The notes beneath the pieces are model-generated. The model did no database searches, was not told the origin of the DNA, and worked only from the letters and a program-made list of their open reading frames with translations. Shown one piece after another: positions 11,481-53,470 of a DNA stretch of 64,000 nt (the stretch's first letter is position 1; each line of letters starts with the position of its first letter). The stretch lies in assembly GCA_907164885.2 (NCBI GenBank), contig OU015501.1:25987083-26051082 (forward strand). The letters are read 5' to 3'. The position numbers and the translations under genes are program-made. The DNA is from Dolomedes plantarius. Its lineage: Eukaryota > Arthropoda > Arachnida > Araneae > Dolomedidae.

Positions 11481-12698
11481 CACTCAAGAGCCAAAACATT
11501 ATGACCACCTGTCAATAACGAGTTGGCCCACCTTTGGCGCGCAAAACAGCTTCAACCCGCCTTGGCATGGATGCCACAAGTCCTTAATAGATGGCCGGAG
11601 ACAGATTGTACCAAATGTTTAAGCAACGGTCACGCAAATCCGAGATATTGCGAATTGGTGGTCTTTGAACTCTGAGCTGCCGTCCCATGACATCCCAAAT
11701 GTGTTCTATCGGATTGAGATCCGGTGAGTTAGGCGGCCAGGACATTAACTGGAATTCAGCATCATGTTCCTGGAACCACTCCAACACAATTTTAGCTTTG
11801 TGACACGGGGCGTTGTCCTGTTGGAGCATTCCATTTCCAGCTGGAAAAACAGAGGCAATGTAAGGGTGCAACTGGTCCGCAATGATGTTCAGATACCCTG
11901 TAGCATTCATGATCTGCTCTACCGCAACCACGGGTCCCAGAGACGCCTAAGAGAACGTCCCCCAAACCATAATACCGCCACCACCGGCCTGGTATGACCA
12001 ACTGTACATTGAGGGAGCAACAGTTCGCTTGGAAGTCGGCGTATCCTGACACGGCCATCGGCGTGATGAATGACAAACCATGATTCATCTGACCAGGCAA
12101 CTCTCTCCCACTGATCCATGGACCAGTCGCGATGTTCCCGGGCCCAGAGCAGGCGCAGTTGGCTATGACGATTGGTCAGCAAAGGCACACGAGTGGGACG
12201 TTTGCTGCGTAGCCCCATATCCAACAGTGTCTGCTGAACAGTGTGCTGCGATACTATTCTACTTGGCCCTGCATTGCATTGGGCTGTCAGCTGAGCCACT
12301 CTCTGGCTCCGGTTTTGCTTCACCATGCGAGACAGTCTCCGACGACCTTTTTCTTTGATAGCATGTGGACGTCCAACACCATGTCGTCTACTGTTGGTTA
12401 CACCGTCATTCATCCACTTTGCATAAGTACTAACAACTGTAGGTCGCGAGCAACCCACGAGTCGTGCAGTTTCGGAAATACTTGTTCTGATCCTTCGAGC
12501 CATTACAATCTGCCCTCTATCAAAGTCGCTTAGATCCGCAGCCTTTCCCATCACACACAGAAGTAAGTGAAAGAATGATTCTTCAGACTCTCCAGCAGCA
12601 GTTAAATACCACTTCCACCTGATCACGGGCCTTCCACGTCATCCAGGCGAATTCATTGCAAAATGTAGGCGTGGTCATAATGTTTTGGCTCTTGAGTG
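11481..12698 (-). mobile_element. Tc1-type transposon with 28 bp TIRs
   Basis: The ends are perfect inverted repeats of 28 bp (11481-11508 and 12671-12698), starting CACTCAAGAGCCAAAACATT, with TA on each side (11479-11480, 12699-12700). Length is 1218 bp, close to a full-size Tc1 element. One decayed transposase gene fills it on the minus strand. Confidence 0.95.
11584..12551 (-). pseudogene. Tc1-type transposase, frameshifted, DD36E-like spacing
   Basis: The likely start is the ATG at 12551 ([20 protein letters not shown]). The N-terminal HTH pair runs through [13 protein letters not shown] and HGVGRPHA. The first catalytic Asp sits in WSDESWF, the second in QQDNAPCH and the Glu in PIEHIWD. 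I count 36 residues between second Asp and Glu, not the 34 of classical Tc1. A one-base shift near 11985-11995 and a TAG within the following conserved block (near 11950) separate the N-terminal 210 codons from the C-terminal 115 (11931-11584). Otherwise well preserved, so fairly recent. Inactive as assembled. Confidence 0.9.
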
Positions 12699-32108: not shown

Positions 32109-33190
32109 TGTAGCGAACTGAGGTTCGTAGTGTCAACCAGTAGATGATTTAAACACACCAGGTATACATCACTCATTACATAAACAAAACAAATGCAATT
32201 TATTAATAAAATTGATGATGATGAGATATGTACACTGCACAGATGTAAGATGAACTTCGTAACTGAGGTAATCACACTCGATTTAATCGGCGTGGGGCGG
32301 AGTAAGAACACAGAAGTCCGCTAGGCTAGCAGAACTGGCTCTGCTTCAATGATGAAGAAACGGCACTTCTCCTGACGGGAAAGGGCTCCCCAATAATATC
32401 AACGGCGGTGATCACTGCACGCACCCGGTAGCGATGAAAATATTAAATTAAGGAGAAAGGACTCCTCACTGGAAAATAAGGTAGCAAAGGCTCCTTCCAC
32501 GAAGACTGGTCTCCGACAAATTAGTGGAGTATGTTTACTCCTGCAGGAACTAGATCGTCGCTGCAAACAGTCACAAGGGACTCTGAACCGGTAAGGGCGG
32601 CAAACCCGGCTGCTCTTAGAACTGGATCCGCTACGTGTCAGGAACTAAAAGACGCAAGCCACGACTGAGGGGTCCATTCTCTTTGTATAGAAGACCTCCA
32701 CCGGATATTGCATCACTCTCCAGAAAGTCGAACGATCTAGAACAAGTGAGCAACGGAAATGGGTTTCCTGGGGCGATAATGAAATATTTTCCCCGGGTCT
32801 AAAGCGGCCGCCTTTTTAGTTTGTCCTCCAAGCCACTTCAAAGAGTCTCAAAGGGCCGCTTCGGTAAAATGCGAAAGGCACGAGTCCTTTTGTTTAGGCA
32901 CGCGACGCCTCCAGGATGCTGCTTAACAATTGATAGTTCATGAATGAAAGCACCTGGGGGTCTCCTGTCATTTATAACTAACATCAGCGGTGTCACTCGG
33001 TGGCGATGACTAAATCAAGAAAAATGACCATGTCCCCTAAGGTTCTGTGGAACAAGTCTATCGGATGAACAAAAGGAAAATTGCCGTCAGCATATTTCCA
33101 CCTAAGTCGTCGGAAATCTTTTGATGGGTCTCAGGCCGAGATAGAAGAATTTCTTTTGTTAACGGAGAGGTTGAAATGCAATACTCTACA
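32109..33190 (-). mobile_element. Solo LTR (1082 bp) inside the transposon gene
   Basis: The ends are TGTAG...CTACA, flanked by perfect 4 bp duplications GAAT at 32105-32108 and 33191-33194. Removing the insert and one GAAT leaves the host gene's frame continuous, which fixes both borders. The segment is clearly GC-richer than its surroundings. AATAAA near 32197 on the minus strand, about 90 bases from that strand's LTR end, suggests U3-R-U5 order on minus. A plus-strand AATAAA nearby leaves some doubt. Gypsy- or BEL-type by the 4 bp duplication. Confidence 0.85.
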
Positions 33191-35119
33191 GAATGATCTG
33201 GGCCTCACTGCTGCTACAAGACTATGAGCCAGTGCTGTGTTCTTCTTCTTCCACATATTATGGTCCCCACGTTTTTTGTTTAGTACAACTGCTTCCATAA
33301 ATCCACGGAGACTTTCAGGAATGAGTTCCTCATTTCCTTCCAAAAATTTATCAGGTGAGGGGTACTGTGCTGTCTCATAAACCTGGCTCCTGATATCCTC
33401 AACAACAATTGCAGCAGCCGTCTTAATAATCCGGAGTCTTTCCTCTTGTTCTTTTTTTAACGCCTGCTGGTACCAAGCATCATTTAAAATTTTATACCCT
33501 GTGTTTCTGAAACATACTACCAGCATCTTGTTTGGAGAACAGGTCATTATTATATCGCTTCCATATTTTTTGAGTAGATGAGCTTTAACTGTCTTTATGT
33601 CAGGACGATAATCACCCTTCATTTGGTCCACCAACTCGTCTAGCGTAAACTGACATTCTCCATCACTATTCTCAAGATAAGTGTAGACATATTCCATTGC
33701 TGCTTCAACATGATTGGCGAATGGACCCCTTTTTCTCTTCTCTTGAATTTTTGGGCGATTGTACAATTTTCTCATGCATAAACTATGATACTGACAATCA
33801 GAAACCACCAAGTCTGAGACAGGCAGAAGACGTTTGATTATGGCTTGTCCATACTCATCACCACGTTCTTCTGCCCTTTTTATGATAGTTTCCTTGACTT
33901 TCAAAATTCGAACCTGATACACAATATTACGATTGGTTTTCTTTTTTCTTTGTTGTTCTATAAAGTCAGGTGTTATGACGAGGCCACACATAAAACAATG
34001 AGTTTTGAAATTGAAATGCGCTTCAGTAGAACGTCTTTTGACTTGCTCTCTACCCTGTTCCGCCTTCTTCAAATGCGCTGCAATCATTCTTTTATTAATG
34101 TAGTTTGTGCGACATCGCTCATGAACATCAACTGCAGATTTTTCACGTAGCTGAACATGCTCACCATCCTTCCTCTTCTTTCTTGACTCGATAAACGTTT
34201 TCAAACCTCTTTGCCGCACCGTTATCACCTTCTCTACGTTATTATCCAGCACTTCATCACAAATAAAACACACATTTGAAGCCATTTTTAACACTACGCG
34301 TAAATATAACTTTTGAATCGTGTTGTCGTTGGATTCTAACACTGAACTATTTGCTTCCTTCGCACTGCCACTGGTAGGAATCGGATGGCCGGTGTTTTTA
34401 TTTTTTGTTTTTTTTTTTGGAGGGGGGAGGGAAGGAAACCTCGTGAACAATATGAAGGGACTTGAGACTGGGTCAACACCCCTATATCGGATATAGGGGG
34501 TGTTGATTGGGTACGCATGTACACGGTGACGTAGTTGGCCTTGAGTCGTCTGTGAAGGAATCGAATAGAAGGAAAGAGGGATTTTAAACCAAACGAGGCA
34601 GTTATAAAATCATTTGGTGAGGCTCGCCGAGAATAAATAACATGAAAAGACGTACAAGACGGAATTATATTTGCACAGAATTTAAATATAATGTGATTTT
34701 GAAAATCCTACATTGTATTGGATGGAGGAATTAAATGACAGCCTTTAATGATAAGTTTTGGAGTGTAAAAAGTGGGATTTTGCGGAGCCAGCCGAAATAC
34801 GCCAATTTTCAAATAGCGCTTGAGCCCAAACGGTCCGTCGGAGAAAAAACCTAAATAGTGAAATTTGTAGGAAATTTTATGTACTTTAATTTTGATAAAT
34901 TTGGTTATATACGAAAAGTTGATAGTTTCCGAGTTATAAGCAAAAAACCGCCAAAAAATGAAAATTTTTACCTTTTTTTGCATTTTCTTCAATGTTGCGT
35001 CACGAAATTTTGTTAACAAACCTCAGATTCGGATTCAGCACCCCAAAAAACATATAAAATGGAAGAAATCAAAACTACCCCAAAATTTGACTGGACTAAT
35101 ATATATATATATATATATA

Positions 35120-36529
35120 CACTCATGGACAAAAAAATAAGCGCACCAAGAAATAATTGCGGGATCGTAACGAAACTTGCAATGAAGGTACATGTCGGGG
35201 AGATATGCAAATGATTAGAAATGCAGCGTGATTGCGCATTGCGTATAGCCGGTAGAGGGCGTTGAACATCGTACTCTGTGGAGTATAAAACAGGTAACCA
35301 AAGCTTGTTTGAGTGTGCTGAATCATTTACAAAGGAAGAGCTGAGATAGACATGCCATTACGCCGTGTTCGAAGACAATATGAGCAGTTGTCGCAGTTTG
35401 AGAGGGGGAGAATCGTCGGGATGATGGAAGCTGGGTGGTCAGCTAGGCGAGTAGCTCGTCAATTAGGCCGCTCTGATTGTGTTGTGAGGTGGTGTTGGGA
35501 CCAGTGGACCCGAGAGATGTCATGTACACGAAGACCAGGCTCAGGACGCCCTCGACAGACCAGTCGTCGAGAAGACCGCCACATCGTAAGAAATGCACGC
35601 GACAAGCCAACTGCTTCATCGGCCGCCATCCAGGCACAGGTAGCACCTTCACTAGTGGCCTCTGTGTCTTCTCGAACCATACGAAGGCGCCTGGCTGAAG
35701 GACAGTTGGTATCGCGGCGCCCATTACGTGTGCTGCCCTTGACACCCACCCATCGACGCCTCCGTTTGGAGTTTTGCCGCACACGAGGAAACTGGATTGC
35801 AGCGGAATGGAACCAGGTCGTCTTTAGCTACGAATCCAGATTCAATCTCGGCAGTGATGACAATCGTGTTCGTGTGTGGAGAGCCCGTGGTGAACGCTTC
35901 AATCCTGCCTTTGCTGTACAGCGACACATCGCTCCCACAGCTGGTGTGATGGTATGGGGTGCCATTGCCTACAATACACGGTCACCCCTAGTATTGTTCC
36001 GTGGCACCATGACAGCCCAGCGGTGTGTTCATGAAATCTTGCAACCACATGTGTTGCCACTCATGCAACGGCTCCCAGGAACCATTTTTCAACAAGACAA
36101 CGCTCGGCCTCATACGGCAAGGGTGTCACAAGACTGTCTCCGCACTGTTACTACCCTTCCTTGGCCTGCCCGATCCCCAGATTTGTCTCCAATCGAGCAT
36201 ATCTGGGATCATTTGGGAAGACGAGTTGGGCATCCCACGAGTTTGAAAGAACTAGAGGCAAGGTTACAGCAAATATGGAACGAAATGTCTCAAGACATCA
36301 TACAGAACTTGTATGACTCAATGCCCGATCGTATCGCATCGTGCATTCGCGCTAGAGGGGGTCCAATACTCCACAGAGTACGATGTTCAACGGCCTCTAC
36401 CGGCTATACGTAATGCGCAATCACGCTGCATTTCTAATCATTTGCATATCTCCCCGACATGTACCTTCATTGCAAGTTTCGTAACCATCCGGCAATTATT
36501 TCTTGGTGCGCTAATTTTTTTGTCCATGA

Positions 36530-42840: not shown

Positions 42841-42879
42841 TATATTGCCGCTTAAAGCCTTTCCCGTCAAAGACTCTGT

Positions 42880-42945
42880 TGCTGAATGGTCAACGCACCG
42901 GACTGCTGAGCAAGAGGTCCCCGGTTCGAAGCTCTACATTATTTT
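42880..42945 (+). promoter_or_regulatory. tRNA-Ser-like pol III A box, B box and T-run in the LTR
   Basis: The A-box-like TGCTGAATGGTC (42880-42891) and B-box GGTTCGAAGCT (42923-42933) are separated by 31 bases; TTTT follows at 42942. Between them, GGACTGCTGA recalls the anticodon arm of tRNA-Ser(GCT). The T stem cannot pair, so this is not a working tRNA gene. It is repeated in the 3-prime LTR (48115-48180). Pol III activity is inference. Confidence 0.6.
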
Positions 42946-42978
42946 AATTTAATTTAATTCTAATTCTATTTCTGTTAG

Positions 42979-43034
42979 TTCTAGAAGTTTCTAGAACATT
43001 CTTTAATTTCCTGGAACGGCGTTCCAGAATATTC
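42979..43034 (+). promoter_or_regulatory. Two heat-shock-element arrays in the LTR U3
   Basis: 42979-43001 holds five alternating TTC/GAA units each separated by two bases (TTC-GAA-TTC-GAA-TTC). 43022-43034 holds three more (TTC-GAA-TTC). Contiguous inverted nGAAn units are the binding site of trimeric HSF. Between them TTCCTGGAA (43008-43016) matches the TTCnnnGAA STAT-type site. The arrays end about 10 bases before the TATA region. In the 3-prime LTR the first unit is changed (CTC), leaving four plus three. Confidence 0.8.
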
Positions 43035-43041
43035 TGTTGAT

Positions 43042-43079
43042 GGATAAAAGAGCAAGTAGCTCAATCTGTGAGTTCAGTT
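43042..43079 (+). promoter_or_regulatory. LTR core promoter: TATA and initiator
   Basis: GGATAAAAG (43042-43050) is TATA-like, and TCAGTT (43074-43079) is an exact arthropod initiator. Its A at 43076 is 32 bases after the start of ATAAAA (43044), the standard TATA-to-start distance. Transcription would begin at about 43076 and run through gag and pol. Confidence 0.7.
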
Positions 43080-43302
43080 CTGAGTTCTATCAGCTAAGTG
43101 TTGTGTGCTAATAAACAGCGTTGTATTCCCTCTACGTGTGTGTTCAATCCATACGACTACCATCTACGCGACATCTTTGGTGGAGGCGCCGGGTACTCAA
43201 TTCAGTCTGGAAGCAGAAGAAATACGAAGAAGCCGTAGACTTTTAAATCTTCCTCCGGAATACGGTCTTTACGTAGCCGCTCCACGAAAGCGATTCCCGG
43301 CA

Positions 43303-44454
43303 ATGCCTGAAGGAGAAGTCAAGCCACAAACCGTTCTGCTGTCTCCAGCACTAATTAGGGAACCGAGAAAGCCGACAATTTTTAGAGGCGATTCTGGACA
43401 AGATCCAACCAAGTGGTTAAAAGAATACCTTAGAGTATCAAAATTTAATCAATGGGATGATACTCTATGTCTTGCGAACGTCTACTTTTTCCTTGATGGG
43501 ACCGCCAAAATATGGTTTGAAAATAACGAAGATCTGCTGAATTCATGGGACGACTTCGAAAGAGAACTGAAAAAAACTTTTGGTGACTCTCAGCTATATA
43601 TACGGCGAGCTAAGGATTGCTTAAAATGCCGAGCGCAGAGAGCTGGGGAAGCTACACAATCTTATATCCAAGACGTTTTAGGACTCTGCAACCAAATTGA
43701 CCCAGCCATGTCAGAAGACGATAAAGTGTCCCACTTAATGAAGGGCATCGCAGAAGAGGTGTACCAGGCCTTATTAACTAAGGAGATAAAAACGACAGTC
43801 GATTTCAGTAAATGGTGTCAGTACATTGAGGAAATGCAGCAAAAGCGAATAGGAAGTCAGAAATTCAGTCGCTTGCCGAATGTTGTCCCAAATGCCTCCG
43901 TCGACGAGGGACAGGATCTAACCTCACTGATCCGTAAAATTGTCCGTGAAGAGATACAGCGATTAACTACACCCCAAATTGAAGAGCCCCAAACAGGCGT
44001 ACAAACCATAGAAGCAATTGTGCGAGATGAGGTTGAGAAAGCTTTGGCTCCCATATCTAGTGGAAGCTTCCGAAGGTCGACTCCCACATCCAACCGCAGC
44101 ATCCACTCGACGTATAACAGGCCGGAGCCGGCACAGGAACAATTACCCCGAAAAACCGACGTGTGGCGTACGACCGACAATCGTCCCGTTTGCTTTCACT
44201 GTGGCCGCCCCGGACATGTCGTTCGCTATTGCCGGGATAGAAGAGCAATTTTTAATGCTTACAGAGCTGATAGAGGAAACACAGCCCAGCGACGCATGAT
44301 CTCCCAGAACACCGCCGACGAATCCAGCCGAACGTTTGAAAGAAGTCTGTCGCCTAGCCCTAACCGAGGTCGATCGCCTACTCGTCGCTTCAGATCCCCA
44401 TCGCCGTATAGACGTTCCAGTGTCTCACCTGGCCGAAGAAATGAGGAAAACTAA
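43303..44454 (+). CDS. gag: Gag polyprotein of the Gypsy-type element
   Basis: 383 codons; the first in-frame ATG downstream of the LTR is 43303. The capsid-like region resembles the Retrotrans_gag domain (landmarks [31 protein letters not shown]). A single CCHC zinc knuckle [14 protein letters not shown] lies at 44191-44232, for RNA binding. The C-terminus is Ser/Arg-rich with repeated RSP/SPS motifs (44340-44440), unusual for Gag and similar in feel to SR proteins. Gag forms the particle and packages the RNA. The frame is unbroken. An in-frame extension upstream lacks ATG. Confidence 0.92.
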
Positions 44455-47400
44455 GCAGTGCGACCTTCCTTGGAGGTGAGGCCGCTGAAAAACAAAATCC
44501 TCCCGCTGCCGCAAAGATGACGAAGAATTATCTGGAACTAAACATTGACAGTCAACCAGTACGTGCACTCGTGGACTCCGGCGCATCATTTTCTGTCATC
44601 TCAGACCAATATAGACGTCAGCTGCGAAAGATTATGTTCCCAATCAGCGGAAGCATAATCCTCAAGGTCGCCGACGGAAGTCACGTCCGTCCAATAGGGA
44701 AATGTGTTCTTCGCTTAAACATCAATGGTCTAATACGTCCCTTTGAGTTTACAGTTATGCCGAACTGCAGTCACAATGTTATACTTGGTTGGGATTTTCT
44801 CGAAGCCTCGAGAGCAGTCGTCGACTGTGGCCGATCGGAACTAGTGTTTGACGAAATGATGTCAGATCCTGAATCTGCTGAGACATGGCGAGTGAACACC
44901 CTTCAAGACTGCGTCGTACCTCCGCACTCTATTTCTAAAGTAATTGTCACGAATCCCAAAATTAATGCGATCACAGACGTCATAGTGGAGGGAAATCGAC
45001 TACTGCTGCTGGACAAAGAAGTTGCGGTGCCCTCAACGATCCTGACGTTTTACGACGGTACAGCCGAACTCTGGGTCACGAATGCTCAACCAGAAGCTAG
45101 GTTCATTCCCAAAGGCATGTGTGTGGGCTATGCAGAGACTCTAGACGAGAGGTATCTGAACTGCATCTCCAGTGCGCACATCTGCTCAGCCGCCAAGTTG
45201 AAATCGAGCCCTTCTCCGGTCGACTATTCCCAAATGCTAGCCCAAGATCTCACGGTAGAACGAAAACAGCGACTCTTAGAATTACTTTCTGAGTTTCCTG
45301 AAACTTTTGATCAATCAAGAAAAGCCGGAACAAAAGTAAATGTGAAACATCGTATAATCACTGGCAATCATCTACCGATTAGCAAAAGGGCTTACAGAGT
45401 ATCTCCTGCGGAGCGTCGAATTATTCAAGAGGAAGTAGAAAAGATGCTAGACAGAGATGTTATTCAACCATCGGAGAGCCCATGGTCGTCCCCAGTTGTC
45501 CTCGTGAAGAAAAAGGATGGAAGTTGGCGATTTTGTGTCGATTATCGTCGGCTCAACAAAATTACGAAAAAAGATGCCTACCCTCTGCCACGTATTGACG
45601 ACACATTAGACAGCTTAAAAGGAGCCAAGTTCTTTTCGTCGATCGATCTCTATTCTGGCTACTGGCAGATTGAAGTGGACGAGGCAGATCGCGAAAAGAC
45701 AGCTTTATCACACCAGAAGGACTTTACGACTTCAAGGTCATGCCCTTTGGTCTGAGCAATGCGCCGGCAACCTTTGAAAGAATGATGGATAACTTGCTAC
45801 GACACCTAAATGGACCATGTGTCTCTGTTATCTAGACGACATTGTCGTGTTTTCTGAGACCTTCGACGACCATCTTAAACGTCTGAATGTCGTACTTAAA
45901 TGCATCCAAGAAGCTGGGCTTGTCCTAAATCCAAAAAATGTCTCTTCGGGGCTGAACAAATTAAGATTTTGGGACATCTAGTGTCGGAAGGAGGTGTCCG
46001 CCCCGATCCAGATAAAGTAAAGGCCGTGAAGTGTTTTCCCACACCCAAAAGTGTGCACGACGTCAGATGTTTCCTAGGACTCTGTTCTTATTACCGCCGC
46101 TTCATCAAGGATTTTTGTCATCAAGCTCAACCCTTACAAATGTTGCTGAAAGGTGACTCTAAATTTCGTTGGGACGTGAGCAGTCGGATGCTTTCGACCG
46201 GCTAAAGGAAGCACTGATATCTGACCCTATACTGGGACTTTACGACGAAACGCCGAAACAGAATTGCGAACGGGCGCCAGCGGCTATGGTATTGGAGCAG
46301 TCTTGGTTCAACTACAGCATGGAAAAGAAACAGTTATTGCCTATGCTTCGCGGACACTAACCAAAGCAGAGAAAAATTATTCCACGACTGAAAGAGAATG
46401 CCTTGCCGCCGTATGGGCTGTTCACAAGTTTAGACCATACCTCTTCGGCAAACACTTTTCAATCGTAACAGACCACCATTCGCTGTGTTGGCTAACTAAT
46501 CTAAAGGATCCCCCAGGAAGACTTGCGAGGTGGGCCTTGCGACTACAAGAGTATGACATCTCAATTGTTACAAGAGCGGAAAGAAACACAAGGACGCTGA
46601 TAGTTTGTCCCGAAATCCATTGGAAGAAGACAATATACCATCGGAAGTCATCGCCGCTATAGATTTTGCTAACGTTGCTGACGAACAAAGAAAAGATCCA
46701 AGACTTGCGGAGTTAATACGGACTCTAGGAAATGGCGAAACAGTGAAAGGAGAATTTGAGCTGATTGAAGACGTACTATGTAAAAAGAGTTTCGATCCAA
46801 CCGGCAAGAAATGGCTTCCTGTCATTCCAAGCATCTACGTCAAGACATTCTTCAATGTTTCCATGACGCACCCACGGCCGGACATCTAGGATTCGTCAAA
46901 ACGTACGACAGAATAAGGAAGCGGTTTCACTGGCCAGGGCACTACCGAAATGTGCGACGATATGTCATGCACTGCCGGGAATGCCAGCGTAGGAAAGCCG
47001 TTCCACAGAAGCCACCGGGTCATCTAATGCCTATACCGCCTGCTGTTGCGCCATTTCATTGCATTGGGATAGATCTCCTTCGGCGTTTTCCAAATTCGAC
47101 CACTGGAAATAAATGGATCGTAGTCTGCACCGACTATTTGAGTCGCTATGCTATTACAAAAGCCCTGAAAACTGCTGAAGCTGCGGAATTAGCGAGGTTC
47201 CTCGTCGAAGATATACTTCTAAAACATGGAGCGCCCCGAGTTATCATCACGATCGAGGGCAAGTGTTTCAATCAAGACTTGTTTCAGATATCATCCGGTT
47301 GTGTAACATTAGTCATCGAATGACGACAGCCTACCATCCCCAGACCAATGGCCTTACTGAGCGATTCAACAAAACACTAGGCGACATGTTATCCATGTAC

Positions 47401-48036
47401 GTAGACGTAGAACAGAGAAACTGGGACGAGATACTGCCGTTTGTGACCTTCGCTTACAACATCGCTAAACAGGATGTAACCGGATTCACACCTTTCTATT
47501 TACTTCATGGCCGAGAAGCCGAAACAACGCTCGACACTCTTTTCCCCTTCTGCCCTGACGTGGAGAACGACTATACTAAGCATCTTGTCGTGAAAACCGA
47601 AGAGGTAAGTCAGTTAGCCAGACTACGAACCCTAGAGGCGCAAGAAAAGGACCGTCGGCGTTATAATTCCAAGCACAGGGTGGTGTCCTATTCACCTGGA
47701 GATTTAGTATGGATTTTCACACCTGTTCGGAAAGTAGGCTTGTCCGATAAACTGCTTAAAAAATACTTCGGACCATACCAGGTGTCACGACGATTATCTG
47801 ACGTAACCTACGAAGTCCAAGACTATGAGCCAACATCAAGACACCGGAAAACGATAGACACCGTCCATGTTCTTAGAATGAAGCCTTACTACGACCCTGA
47901 ATTACAAGCACAACATCCGAATGGTGATTCTTCAACATCTGAAGACGGCCATTGTGAAGAGGATCCGCCTACCAATGTAAAGAATGATTACACCGGACCA
48001 CAGACACGTTCCAGGTCAAAAGTTGCTAGCAGTTAG
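44445..48036 (+). pseudogene. pol: Pol polyprotein (PR-RT-RNase H-IN) with multiple one-base frameshifts
   Basis: The pol frame is open from 44445 and overlaps the end of gag by 10 bases in the -1 frame; its first ATG is 44517. Protease: LVDSGASFS, catalytic Asp codon 44574-44576. RT: landmarks [17 protein letters not shown] and the catalytic YLDD (45829-45840). RNase H (about 46260-46600): SGYGIGAV with the preceding catalytic Asp read as Gly, then TDHHSL. Integrase: H-H-C-C zinc domain (about 46850-46990), first core Asp in GIDLL, Glu in TNGLTERFN, C-terminal GDLVWIF. Frame breaks occur near 45708, 45814, 45938, 46172, 46258, 46578, 46827, 47240-47255 and 47272. As assembled it cannot make the full protein. 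Confidence 0.92.
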
Positions 48037-48080: not shown

Positions 48081-48407
48081 TGCCGCTTAAAGCCTTTCCC
48101 GTCAAAGACTCTGTTGCTGAATGGTCAACGCACCGGACTGCTGAGCAAGAGGTCCCCGGTTCGAAGCTCTACATTATTTTAATTTAATTTAATTCTAATT
48201 CTATTTCTGTTAGCTCTAGAAGTTTCTAGAACATTCTTTAATTTCCTGGAACGGCGTTCCAGAATATTCTGTTGATGGATAAAAGAGCAAGTAGCTCAAC
48301 CTGTGAGTTCAGTTCTGAGTTCTATCAGCTAAGTGTTGTGTTCTAATAAACAGCGTTGTATTCCCTCTACGTGTGTGTTCAATCCATACGACTACCATCT
48401 ACGCGAC
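48081..48407 (+). repeat. 3-prime LTR
   Basis: 327 bp, same length as the 5-prime LTR, with three substitutions (counterparts of 42979, about 43066 and about 43107). It carries the same tRNA-like unit, heat-shock-type arrays (48214-48269), TATA and AATAAA. Confidence 0.95.
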
Positions 48408-50999
48408 TATATATATATATATATATACCATAGAGGAGTTTCACTCTATTTTTATAATAATAAAAAACCTTCAGAAAAACAAGAAAAATTTGATTATATA
48501 TCTGGGGCATTAAAAAAGAAAAATTGGGATACATTATAAAATATCTTGTATCGATATTTCCCGTACTCAATTCACTTGAGCTATATTTCGAAGTGAATTG
48601 CAAAAATTTTTATCTTAGCATCCTTAAAACTATGAAATAAACATTTGCGGTTTTAATCAGTTTCTATTTGATTAAAATACACACTTGCGATTAAACAGGA
48701 TAAACAGCACCACCACAAAAGTGATTAGATACTTTTTAAATATAATTGTAAAAATAAAAAGGCTTTTTAACGAAACTATACGAGATGCTTCTGTTTAAAA
48801 TATGTCCTAACTTAATCTCCTTTTTAATTCTAAACAGTTTTTAAAAGGGAAGTATTGAAGTTGGAAATTAATCTTTTCTGTTGAAAGATCAGAAATAATC
48901 TCCCGAAAGTCCTCGGAAGCTAATAACACTGAAAAGAGATTCGTCTATAATACGTAAAAAAGTAAGTTTCTGATGCTATTTCGGATTAAAAAAATTGGTT
49001 GTCTGATTCATTAAATACAATTTTCCCTTTACAAATTTTTTCATTTAAGATTTTAACAATAAATTAAGTGAATTTATATATATTTGTATTGACTGGGTAA
49101 ATGCTTTAAATTAAGATCGCAGTTATTAGAAATTATTATTCGAACTTTTATTCCTTATATTTATTCTGTAATCGATTCCTAGTAAGGGAATTCAAATTAA
49201 GGGAGTGAATTTTCCCTACAAGTAAATACTGGAAGGATCAATATAGATTAATATAGAATATACATTAAACTGCTATCTTTCGGAATATATAAATCTTTAA
49301 TTTCTATTATAAATATAATATTGGCTCAAACTGAAGGAAATTTTCAGAAATTCTTCTGTTAAAATTCAATTAGTATCATTTGAATGCAAATTTAATACAA
49401 AATTAAAGAATTAAAAATATTTGTTAAAAATTATCGAATACAAAAGGTTGCAATCTCTTAACTACGTTAACAGATTAAGTCCATTTTTTCTAAATGAGCA
49501 TGTAATAAAAAATAACATTCTTTACAAAATATTTCGAGTCTTACGACTGATTAGTCTAAGACATAAAATTATGGGATAAGTCAGATAAATATAATCGTGA
49601 AAATCAGCATACTTCACTGCTACTTCAGCTTGTGTTTCTTTTTTGTATTATCCATAGTCGAGTATTTTTTGCTGCCTAGAAATGCAGTTCAAATCAGTAA
49701 TGGTAAATAATATCTGTCGTTAAGTCCTCAAGAGCAAAGCAATCAACGGAGATTAAAATGAATAAACAGAAGAACAAAATGTACTTCGTTTTATGCACAA
49801 AATTAAATGGTTGGATTATTTTCTAAAATAAGCCTTTAAATTGTAAGATAAATCCCATGTTCTGCCAAACAAAAGCAAATTTAAGTTTCAAAAAAGACAA
49901 GAGTTTTGATGCTAATCAAATGGTTCTTCAAAACTCTAACAGAGAAAAACGCAGAAGTTTGAACCGCAACTAATTTCGCAAAGTTATGTAAAAAACGATA
50001 TTCTACTCTGTACTTAGAGGAGAAGGAGCCATTTCATAACTATAGTTCGACCATTATACTTTTTTGCAGATTATAAGAAACACTTCTAATTTGCTCAGCT
50101 TTTGTTTCCTCGTGTAAAAAAACCTGAAAAAGCTAAAAGAAATTCTTTCTTTAGCATTTGCTAATGGAGACGAAATGGATTAAAGGGGGTAAAGATGTAG
50201 AAGATATTCGTGAAAGGGTGTGGACAGAAATGTTTTTTGCTCTCTAGCTTAGAATCCATTTTGTCGGAAGCTTTTCAGCGGTGAAGGGAATTTAATGGCT
50301 CAGAATAACTTAATTGTGATTCTAGTGCACTTTTTCCGTAACTTAAATGAAAAAAAAAAATTCTAAAAATAAGAATAATTCATTTCTTTCGGGCACATGC
50401 AGAGCGTAAAAAAGGGAATATCAGCGTAATTATTATTGAGCAAAATAAATGAAAAGCAAGTCTTATTTCAGGAATGCTGGAATTTAGAAAATTAAATTAT
50501 TTATTTGCGTTTACAAATAATTTAAGCTTGTTTATCATCATGCATGTAACTTTTCATGCAAGTCTTATTAAAACAGGCTCGTGTAATAAACTTATATTTT
50601 AAGATTTAAAACTATTAATAGACTTATCACAATTATTCTTTACTCATAATTATTCTAAAATTATGAACTACACCTAGTAACATAAATGATGTTCAAATGT
50701 TCAAAAATTCATTGTACATGAGATAAAATAGCCAGTTCATGACGTCAAATTGATATTTTCAAAAACAACATTGTTAGAACTATGAAAAAATAAATTAGAG
50801 TATTCTTGATTTTTTACATGTGAAAAAATAAATATAAAAACCTTTGAAAGACTTATAATTAATTATCCTTAAATATGGAAGGGCGATAAATATAAATAAC
50901 TTCAGAATAAGACGTAAAGTAATAATATAAGACAACACGTATTATTTCAGAACTTATTAAGTAGATACACACTCAAGATAACTTTAAAGCACTTCCTCT
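48408..50999. other. AT-rich intergenic, no gene seen
   Basis: Begins with (TA)n at 48408-48427, the target region of the retrotransposon. No gene, RNA or repeat is supported in the rest. Confidence 0.5.
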
Positions 51000-52815: not shown

Positions 52816-53470
52816 GATGCAAAATCAGCAAATTGATATTGATGCAATTAGAGCGCAATTAATACGTAAATTACAAACAAAGGATAATACAATTATGGAG
52901 GGTAAAGATATATTAGTGCATTTGCCAGAATTTTGTGGGAATAAAAATGACAACATTGATTTTTTTTGGCCAATTTGATAAAATAGCAGATATAGGCAAA
53001 TTAAATGAAGAGCATAAATTGTTATTTTTAAAAGCAAAACTAAAGAACAGAGCATTACAATATGTAAGCAGTCACGAAGAGTTACAGGACGAAAATAATT
53101 ATGAAAATTTTAAGAAAACGTTAAAACTAAAATTCACTCCGGAGCAAGATTTCATGAAATCACAAAATGCCTTAATGAAAATCTCGCAGAAACCCGAACA
53201 GTCCGTTAAAGATTTTAAGGAGGAAATTGTCAGGACCGCGTACAACTATTTAAAAGTTGCGAAACTATCAGAGGATCAGGGAACTGTCGGTCTGACGGAA
53301 AAAATTAAATTATCAAAATTTTTAGACGGGTTAAGACCCGATATTCAATTGGAAGTAAAAAAACGGCCCCTACCACATTTAACGAGACTTACGAAACGGC
53401 AAGAAACATAGAAAACGCGCTAGAGGACTCGGAAAACAGCGTTCTGAATATAAATCATGATAGCACTTCA
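52816..53470 (+). pseudogene. gag: Gag remnant of the second LTR retrotransposon
   Basis: Starts around MQNQQIDIDAIRAQLIRKL (52816), shifts frame at the T run near 52960 and continues in the open stretch to 53411, with FGQFDKIADIGKL, ALQYVSSHEELQ and FLDGLRPDIQ. This is the helical capsid-type pattern of Gypsy-like Gag. A frameshift near 53365 and stops follow. A CCHC knuckle, CELCGKSNHITLQC, is found further on at about 53598-53640. Inactive. Confidence 0.75.

Follow-up and report, generated by a model that had tools for sequence, protein, structure and literature searches.

In plants, stress-activated retrotransposons are well studied, and a Ty3/Gypsy copy in the 2.78 Gb genome of the spider Dolomedes plantarius raises the question of whether an animal LTR element could be governed by the heat-shock response as well. 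The copy lies in a stretch of 64,000 nucleotides of contig OU015501.1, here called the window, and carries arrays of heat-shock elements (HSEs) in its long terminal repeats (LTRs). Do these arrays exceed chance, do they recur in other copies and in related families, and what kind of promoter would they form? As a working model for the spider Gypsy LTRs we use ONSEN, a Copia retrotransposon of Arabidopsis for which HSF binding and heat activation are reported in an excerpt of PMC3907296.

Results

The element is located on the forward strand, as are all its features given here, between a 5' LTR (42846..43172, 327 bp, starting with TGCC) and a 3' LTR (48081..48407, 327 bp). The two differ at only 3/327 positions (42979, 43065 and 43107), which fits the label "young Gypsy-type" that an earlier note on this DNA had given to the element. 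Downstream of the 5' LTR we found a primer-binding site (43178..43195, TGGTGGAGGCGCCGGGTA) complementary to a tRNA-Ala-type 3' end, an assignment for which we assume the G3:U70 rule. It is followed by gag (43303..44454; Retrotrans_gag, with a zinc-knuckle match slightly under the Pfam cut-off) and by pol (44517..48036), which encodes protease, reverse transcriptase (RT), RNase H and integrase, though not in one continuous frame but in several. With breaks after 45755, after 46662 and near 47323, the pol of this copy looks broken. The near-identical LTR pair, the primer site, gag and the protease-RT-RNase H-integrase order identify a Ty3/Gypsy element; RNase H before integrase is the Gypsy-type and not the Copia order, and the element is hence no member of the ONSEN family proper. 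We also do not class it as an errantivirus or endogenous retrovirus, since no env reading frame was seen between pol and the 3' LTR, the last frame being the integrase that ends at 48036, 44 bases before the LTR. TATAT, a candidate for a short target-site duplication, stands at both flanks (42841-42845 and 48408-48412), but within AT repeats. The gag query gave 398 matches; among the 120 listed, identity reaches up to 72%, the named relatives are mostly from orb-weaver spiders (Argiope, Araneus, Trichonephila and one Larinioides) plus one pseudoscorpion, and one of the best bears the name Ty3-I Gag-Pol.

Matches to a primer-site pattern number 73 among viral sequences and at least 119 among bacterial ones. 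In 7/7 bacterial matches checked, the 20 bases at 43176-43195 lie inside alphaproteobacterial tmRNA genes. The match probably reflects shared alanine-acceptor ends, presuming the alanine identity pair, rather than a bacterial origin. Gag queries against IMG/VR and bacterial genomes returned no relatives, and a 23-base HSE pattern occurred in these collections in two contigs, neither of which resembled the window LTR on reading.

Both HSE arrays sit in the U3 part of the 5' LTR, and the earlier description of them is confirmed. The distal array (42979..43001, TTCtaGAAgtTTCtaGAAcaTTC) consists of five contiguous, alternating TTC/GAA units with exact 2-base spacers, its third unit being TTC here and TGC in most copies. 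A separate proximal array of three units (43022..43034, TTCcaGAAtaTTC) ends 8 bp before a TATA-like box (43043..43050, GATAAAAG), and an initiator-like TCAGT (43074..43078, with the A at 43076) stands further downstream; the bases right before it are among the most variable positions of the LTR across copies. The 3' LTR repeats the arrangement with one unit lost, the first TTC of its distal array reading CTC (48214), and has its proximal array at 48257-48269. With dinucleotide shuffling of the 5' LTR, the score of 15/15 was reached in 0 of 5000 cases and the 14/15 of the 3' LTR in 1 of 5000. Perfect three-unit arrays occur six times in 85,722 bases flanking the fetched copies plus 58,438 bases from the rest of the window, beyond the ends of the element, a rate of 0.042 per kb or 1.4% per 340 bp that is approximate, some flanks having been counted twice (e.g. 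L007/L014, while L003 is the window itself). The 4,908-base interior of the element contains none. The arrays in the window LTR are real.

How typical is this copy of its own family, F1? The genome search with the LTR as query gave 906 first-look candidates, 40 of which were scored, and a 22-base pattern of the TATA region (up to 3 mismatches) has 823 matches in the genome versus 10 for the reversed control. The 22-base core of the perfect five-unit array occurs 7 times genome-wide, while the gapped core with TGC as third unit occurs 663 times. Two of the seven perfect cores belong to the window's own two LTRs, and two more share a single LTR, which is paired with a gapped-form LTR about 5.2 kb away. 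In a first set of 29 LTR copies, taken from 20 stretches around the best matches with the overlapping loci L003-L010 left out, position 42990 is G in 28 copies and A in one, and a TTC third unit was found in none. A second set comprised 70 copies from 100 listed of the 823 TATA-pattern places, all on contigs C1 and C2, chosen by an exact TATA pattern irrespective of the state of the arrays. Its third unit, scored in 69 copies, reads TGC in 65, TTC in 2 and otherwise in 2; the exact gapped string is present in 58/69, and the proximal array is perfect in 67/70. Going by the core counts and the sampled copies, F1 usually has a gap-type distal HSE that keeps four of the five units in register, together with an intact three-unit array. 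Five perfect units are therefore rejected as a family trait, and the unbroken array is nearly private to the window copy and a few others. Gapped HSEs are described as common and conserved in Drosophila, and arrays starting with nTTCn as preferred (PMC2871787).

With a gag query from a relative (seven upstream stretches) and the primer-site pattern (36 places, 20 of them fetched) we reached three further LTR families: F2 (19 copies: L101-L103, L105, L106, L303, L304, L307-L311 and L313-L319), F3 (L300-L302) and F4 (L305, L306 and L312). They have the gag clade and the primer site in common with the window element, while their LTRs are mostly unalignable with F1. The LTRs start with TGCC in F1, in most F2 copies and in two of the three F3 copies, and with TGTC in F4. 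In the one or two copies checked per family, gag lies 3' of the primer site, in the second F3 copy in three pieces; identity to the gag of the window is 69% for F4, 57% for F3 and 56% for F2. A gag tree, from which F2 was left out, groups F1, F4 and an Argiope protein, and separately F3 and an Araneus protein, at moderate support. Short-word blastn with one copy per family detected similarity largely limited to a tRNA-like segment described below, AT-rich tracts, the HSE/TATA region, the poly(A)-signal region and the LTR ends. Over the HSE/TATA region it concerns mainly the F3-F4 pair, and in a forced global alignment of F1 with F2 the two five-unit registers fall on each other.

The best copies of all four families carry the TTC-GAA-TTC-GAA-TTC register at 14/15 bases, a score reached by 0-1 of 3000 shuffles (1/5000 for L107 and for L103). 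The register stands at LTR position 134 in F1, 171 in F2, 135 in F3 and 143-146 in F4. The unit that departs from the motif is not the same throughout (F1, third; F2 and F3, second; F4, fifth), which indicates that the register rather than a frozen sequence was kept. Within F2 the distal array scores 14/15 in 16/19 copies and 13/15 in L309, and is lost in L307 and L315; the weaker F3 and F4 copies are L302 (12/15, reached by 54/3000 shuffles) and L305 (13/15, 11/3000). A perfect proximal TTCtaGAAagTTC was found in 6/6 F3 and F4 LTRs, 6-7 bp upstream of TATA. F3 and F4 are not fully independent here, because homology between them is detectable in the stretch with the proximal array and TATA. 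The proximal array of F2 is degenerate at most, with 8/9 in five copies and 7/9 in fourteen (two of these elsewhere), and seems to be decaying in one F2 subfamily. Five F2 copies (L307, L309-L311 and L313) keep GAAnnTTCnnGAG before TATA, and most other F2 copies read GAAatATCcgGAG.

HSEs are found in the LTR of most copies sampled: at the proximal site in F1, F3 and F4 and at the distal site in F2. The earlier note had named arrays absent or scrambled in most other copies as part of what would refute its reading; this is the case for the perfect five-unit form only, as the gapped register and the proximal array persist in F1 and the register recurs in three more LTR families. Conservation beyond neutral expectation, which the note had proposed as a check, was not seen in the window's own family: outside the AT tract (12/1775) and 43035-43075 (26/1242), the HSE cores of the young F1 copies have 9/1464 substitutions versus 160/16258, the same direction as in F2 without significance (p = 0.20). 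It was seen in the sister family. When 18 F2 copies were compared with L103, the 23 bp of the array had 3/381 substitutions versus 280/5497 for the whole LTR (0.8% vs 5.1%; Fisher p = 5e-6, ignoring the relatedness of the copies). No part of the F2 LTR is better conserved than the array, and the twelve lowest intervals listed all overlap it, while the A box, the B box and the proximal site are unexceptional in the same comparison.

These boxes belong to a tRNA-like segment that the first reading had overlooked. In the U3 region of the window LTR (42879..42933) an A box (TTGCTGAATGG, at 42879) and a B box (GGTTCGAAGCT, at 42923) of the Pol III type 2 stand 44 bp apart, with TTTT at 42942, 3' of the B box. 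Similar boxes, 43-44 bp apart, are present near the LTR start in all four families. Scored with what we take to be the A/B-box consensus, 9/10 LTRs have a joint score that 0-2 of 1000 shuffles attain (0/1000 for the window LTR), the exception being L300 with 16/1000; the best A box of L300 and L302 was scored at 52, and that of L301 is weak. F1 and F3 resemble each other most strongly in this segment (80% over 45 bp). It is not a real tRNA, as ARAGORN and Rfam call none. In 8/10 LTRs the B box has a TTTT within 19-45 bp on its 3' side. Most likely the boxes bind TFIIIC, acting either as a Pol III or minor promoter or as a boundary that would keep the LTR accessible.

On the side of the host, 54 HSP70 matches were found in the genome, and about 900 bp were taken upstream of the best 8 of these, each a near-whole profile in one frame. 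A perfect three-unit array is present in 5/8 of these regions, two of which (L326 and L327) look like duplicates, and absent from the other 3/8. One region, L324, has GAAgcTTCtaGAAcaTTC, within which TTCTAGAACATTC is common to the window LTR.

Discussion

We consider it likely that this clade of spider Gypsy elements has a heat-shock-type Pol II promoter in its LTRs, which host HSF would load under heat or proteotoxic stress, with the tRNA-like boxes as a second shared module. The distal part of the promoter would be the five-unit HSE register, mostly of the gap type with one degenerate unit; three of the four families, F1, F3 and F4, add a perfect three-unit HSE 6-8 bp before TATA. As for ONSEN, the host HSF would trimerise under heat or another proteotoxic stress, occupy the distal and the proximal array and bring in Pol II at the TATA box, so that full-length genomic RNA would be made, starting near 43076. 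We infer this start, HSF binding, heat induction and retrotransposition bursts from features that are directly observed: the motif, its register and place, its recurrence in four LTR families, the constraint in one of them and the motif upstream of host HSP70. The reading of the element as possibly stress-inducible, put forward in the earlier note, is supported in part, in that the gapped register recurs while the perfect array is not typical and F1 lacks significant constraint. It gains strength from the relatives in F2-F4 that carry the same register.

The arrays could instead be a relic without a present role, inherited through a shared ancestry of the four LTR families, for which the detectable similarity of F3 and F4 in this region and the missing significance in F1 would speak. 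We find this improbable, as the best copies retain 14/15 bases of the array although most of the LTR is beyond blastn alignment, as substitutions in the F2 array are far fewer than in the LTR overall, and as the position of the imperfect unit varies between families. It is likewise unlikely that the arrays serve a constitutive or developmental HSF, for example in the germ line or oogenesis, or another reader of GAA/TTC inverted repeats, instead of heat. HSF has roles outside stress, which counts for such a use, but the register, the 2-base spacing and the TATA-proximal place are those of heat-shock genes, and the same array form lies upstream of most of the host HSP70 regions taken.

The tRNA-like module could also be the main promoter, read by Pol III as proposed for the Helenus TRIMs, with the HSE arrays secondary. 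The regular spacing of the A and B boxes in four families, their shuffle-rare joint score and the Helenus precedent (an excerpt of PMC10886601) favour this, yet we regard it as very improbable. Pol III could hardly make the ~5 kb genomic RNA because TTTT comes so soon after the B box in most LTRs; moreover TATA, AATAAA and the Gypsy genes fit Pol II, and the same excerpt argues that autonomous partners need Pol II. With the heat-shock-type Pol II promoter as the preferred reading, the same heat-shock switch and tRNA-gene-like boxes in otherwise dissimilar LTRs suggest that heat stress may turn these elements on.

Compared with ONSEN, which is a plant Copia element with experimentally shown activation, the spider elements are Gypsy, and their activation is predicted from sequence; their arrays are longer, are kept across four LTR families and are accompanied by tRNA-like boxes. 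PMC3907296 also mentions a copia-type element of Drosophila that has heat-shock consensus sequences, likewise an arthropod LTR element tied to heat induction; the spider LTRs have four to five units and a second array. Caenorhabditis Helitrons, for which HSEs and HSF-1 binding are reported (PMC6927752, in part), have dispersed HSEs in the genome of an animal by transposition, as is proposed for the spider elements; they are DNA transposons, whereas the spider case concerns an LTR promoter. Helenus, or TRIMp3 (Kojima 2024, PMC10886601), has LTRs with a tRNA-like sequence and conserved A and B boxes, which are present in the spider LTRs too, and animal Helenus is linked to Gypsy in that excerpt. 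Helenus elements are described there as short (under 1 kb), non-autonomous and free of a coding region. In contrast, the window element has gag and pol, gag also follows the primer sites of F2, F3 and F4, and the spider LTRs additionally carry what appears to be a TATA/HSE promoter of the Pol II type. The open literature, searched by title and abstract, gave no HSEs in animal or spider LTRs and no tRNA-like boxes in Gypsy LTRs, the Drosophila precedent in PMC3907296 aside.

More tentatively, and with rather less than even confidence, we propose that an autonomous animal Gypsy lineage kept, in LTRs that for the rest are mostly unalignable, a composite control region, made of an outer TFIIIC-binding tRNA-like module and a bipartite HSF array by TATA, possibly since before the orb-weaver genera split. 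Expression of its elements would be wired firmly to the heat-shock response of the host, the tRNA-like module serving as boundary or second promoter, and the ~820 LTR copies of F1 alone (pattern matches) would be scattering heat-responsive promoters over the spider genome. If a heat-shock promoter is indeed conserved across the clade, animal LTR elements can be lastingly tied to the heat-shock response, and bursts together with a rewiring of host genes would be predicted under warming. The picture in PMC10886601, where tRNA-like LTR modules are those of non-autonomous elements and the autonomous partners are presumed to use Pol II promoters and to lack such tRNA-like stretches, would then be widened.

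Some further observations concern the arrangement of the copies and the surroundings of the element. At L017 (G000:C9:114449600-114458200) six window-family LTRs form a tandem array with ~1455-bp spacing, all six differing from the window copy by the same two changes. At L024 three LTRs stand in a row with only AT microsatellite between them, and several other copies are also found at AT repeats, which suggests a target preference for ATAT. Elsewhere in the window, a stop-to-stop frame of 492 codons on the reverse strand (33131-34609) is without any Pfam match. Tc1/mariner-type transposase sequences lie at 35322-36413 and 11919-12638 (Pfam HTH_Tnp_Tc3_2 in both, DDE_3 in the first), and 52917-53411 holds a gag fragment of another Ty3-like element (Retrotrans_gag, Ty3_capsid).
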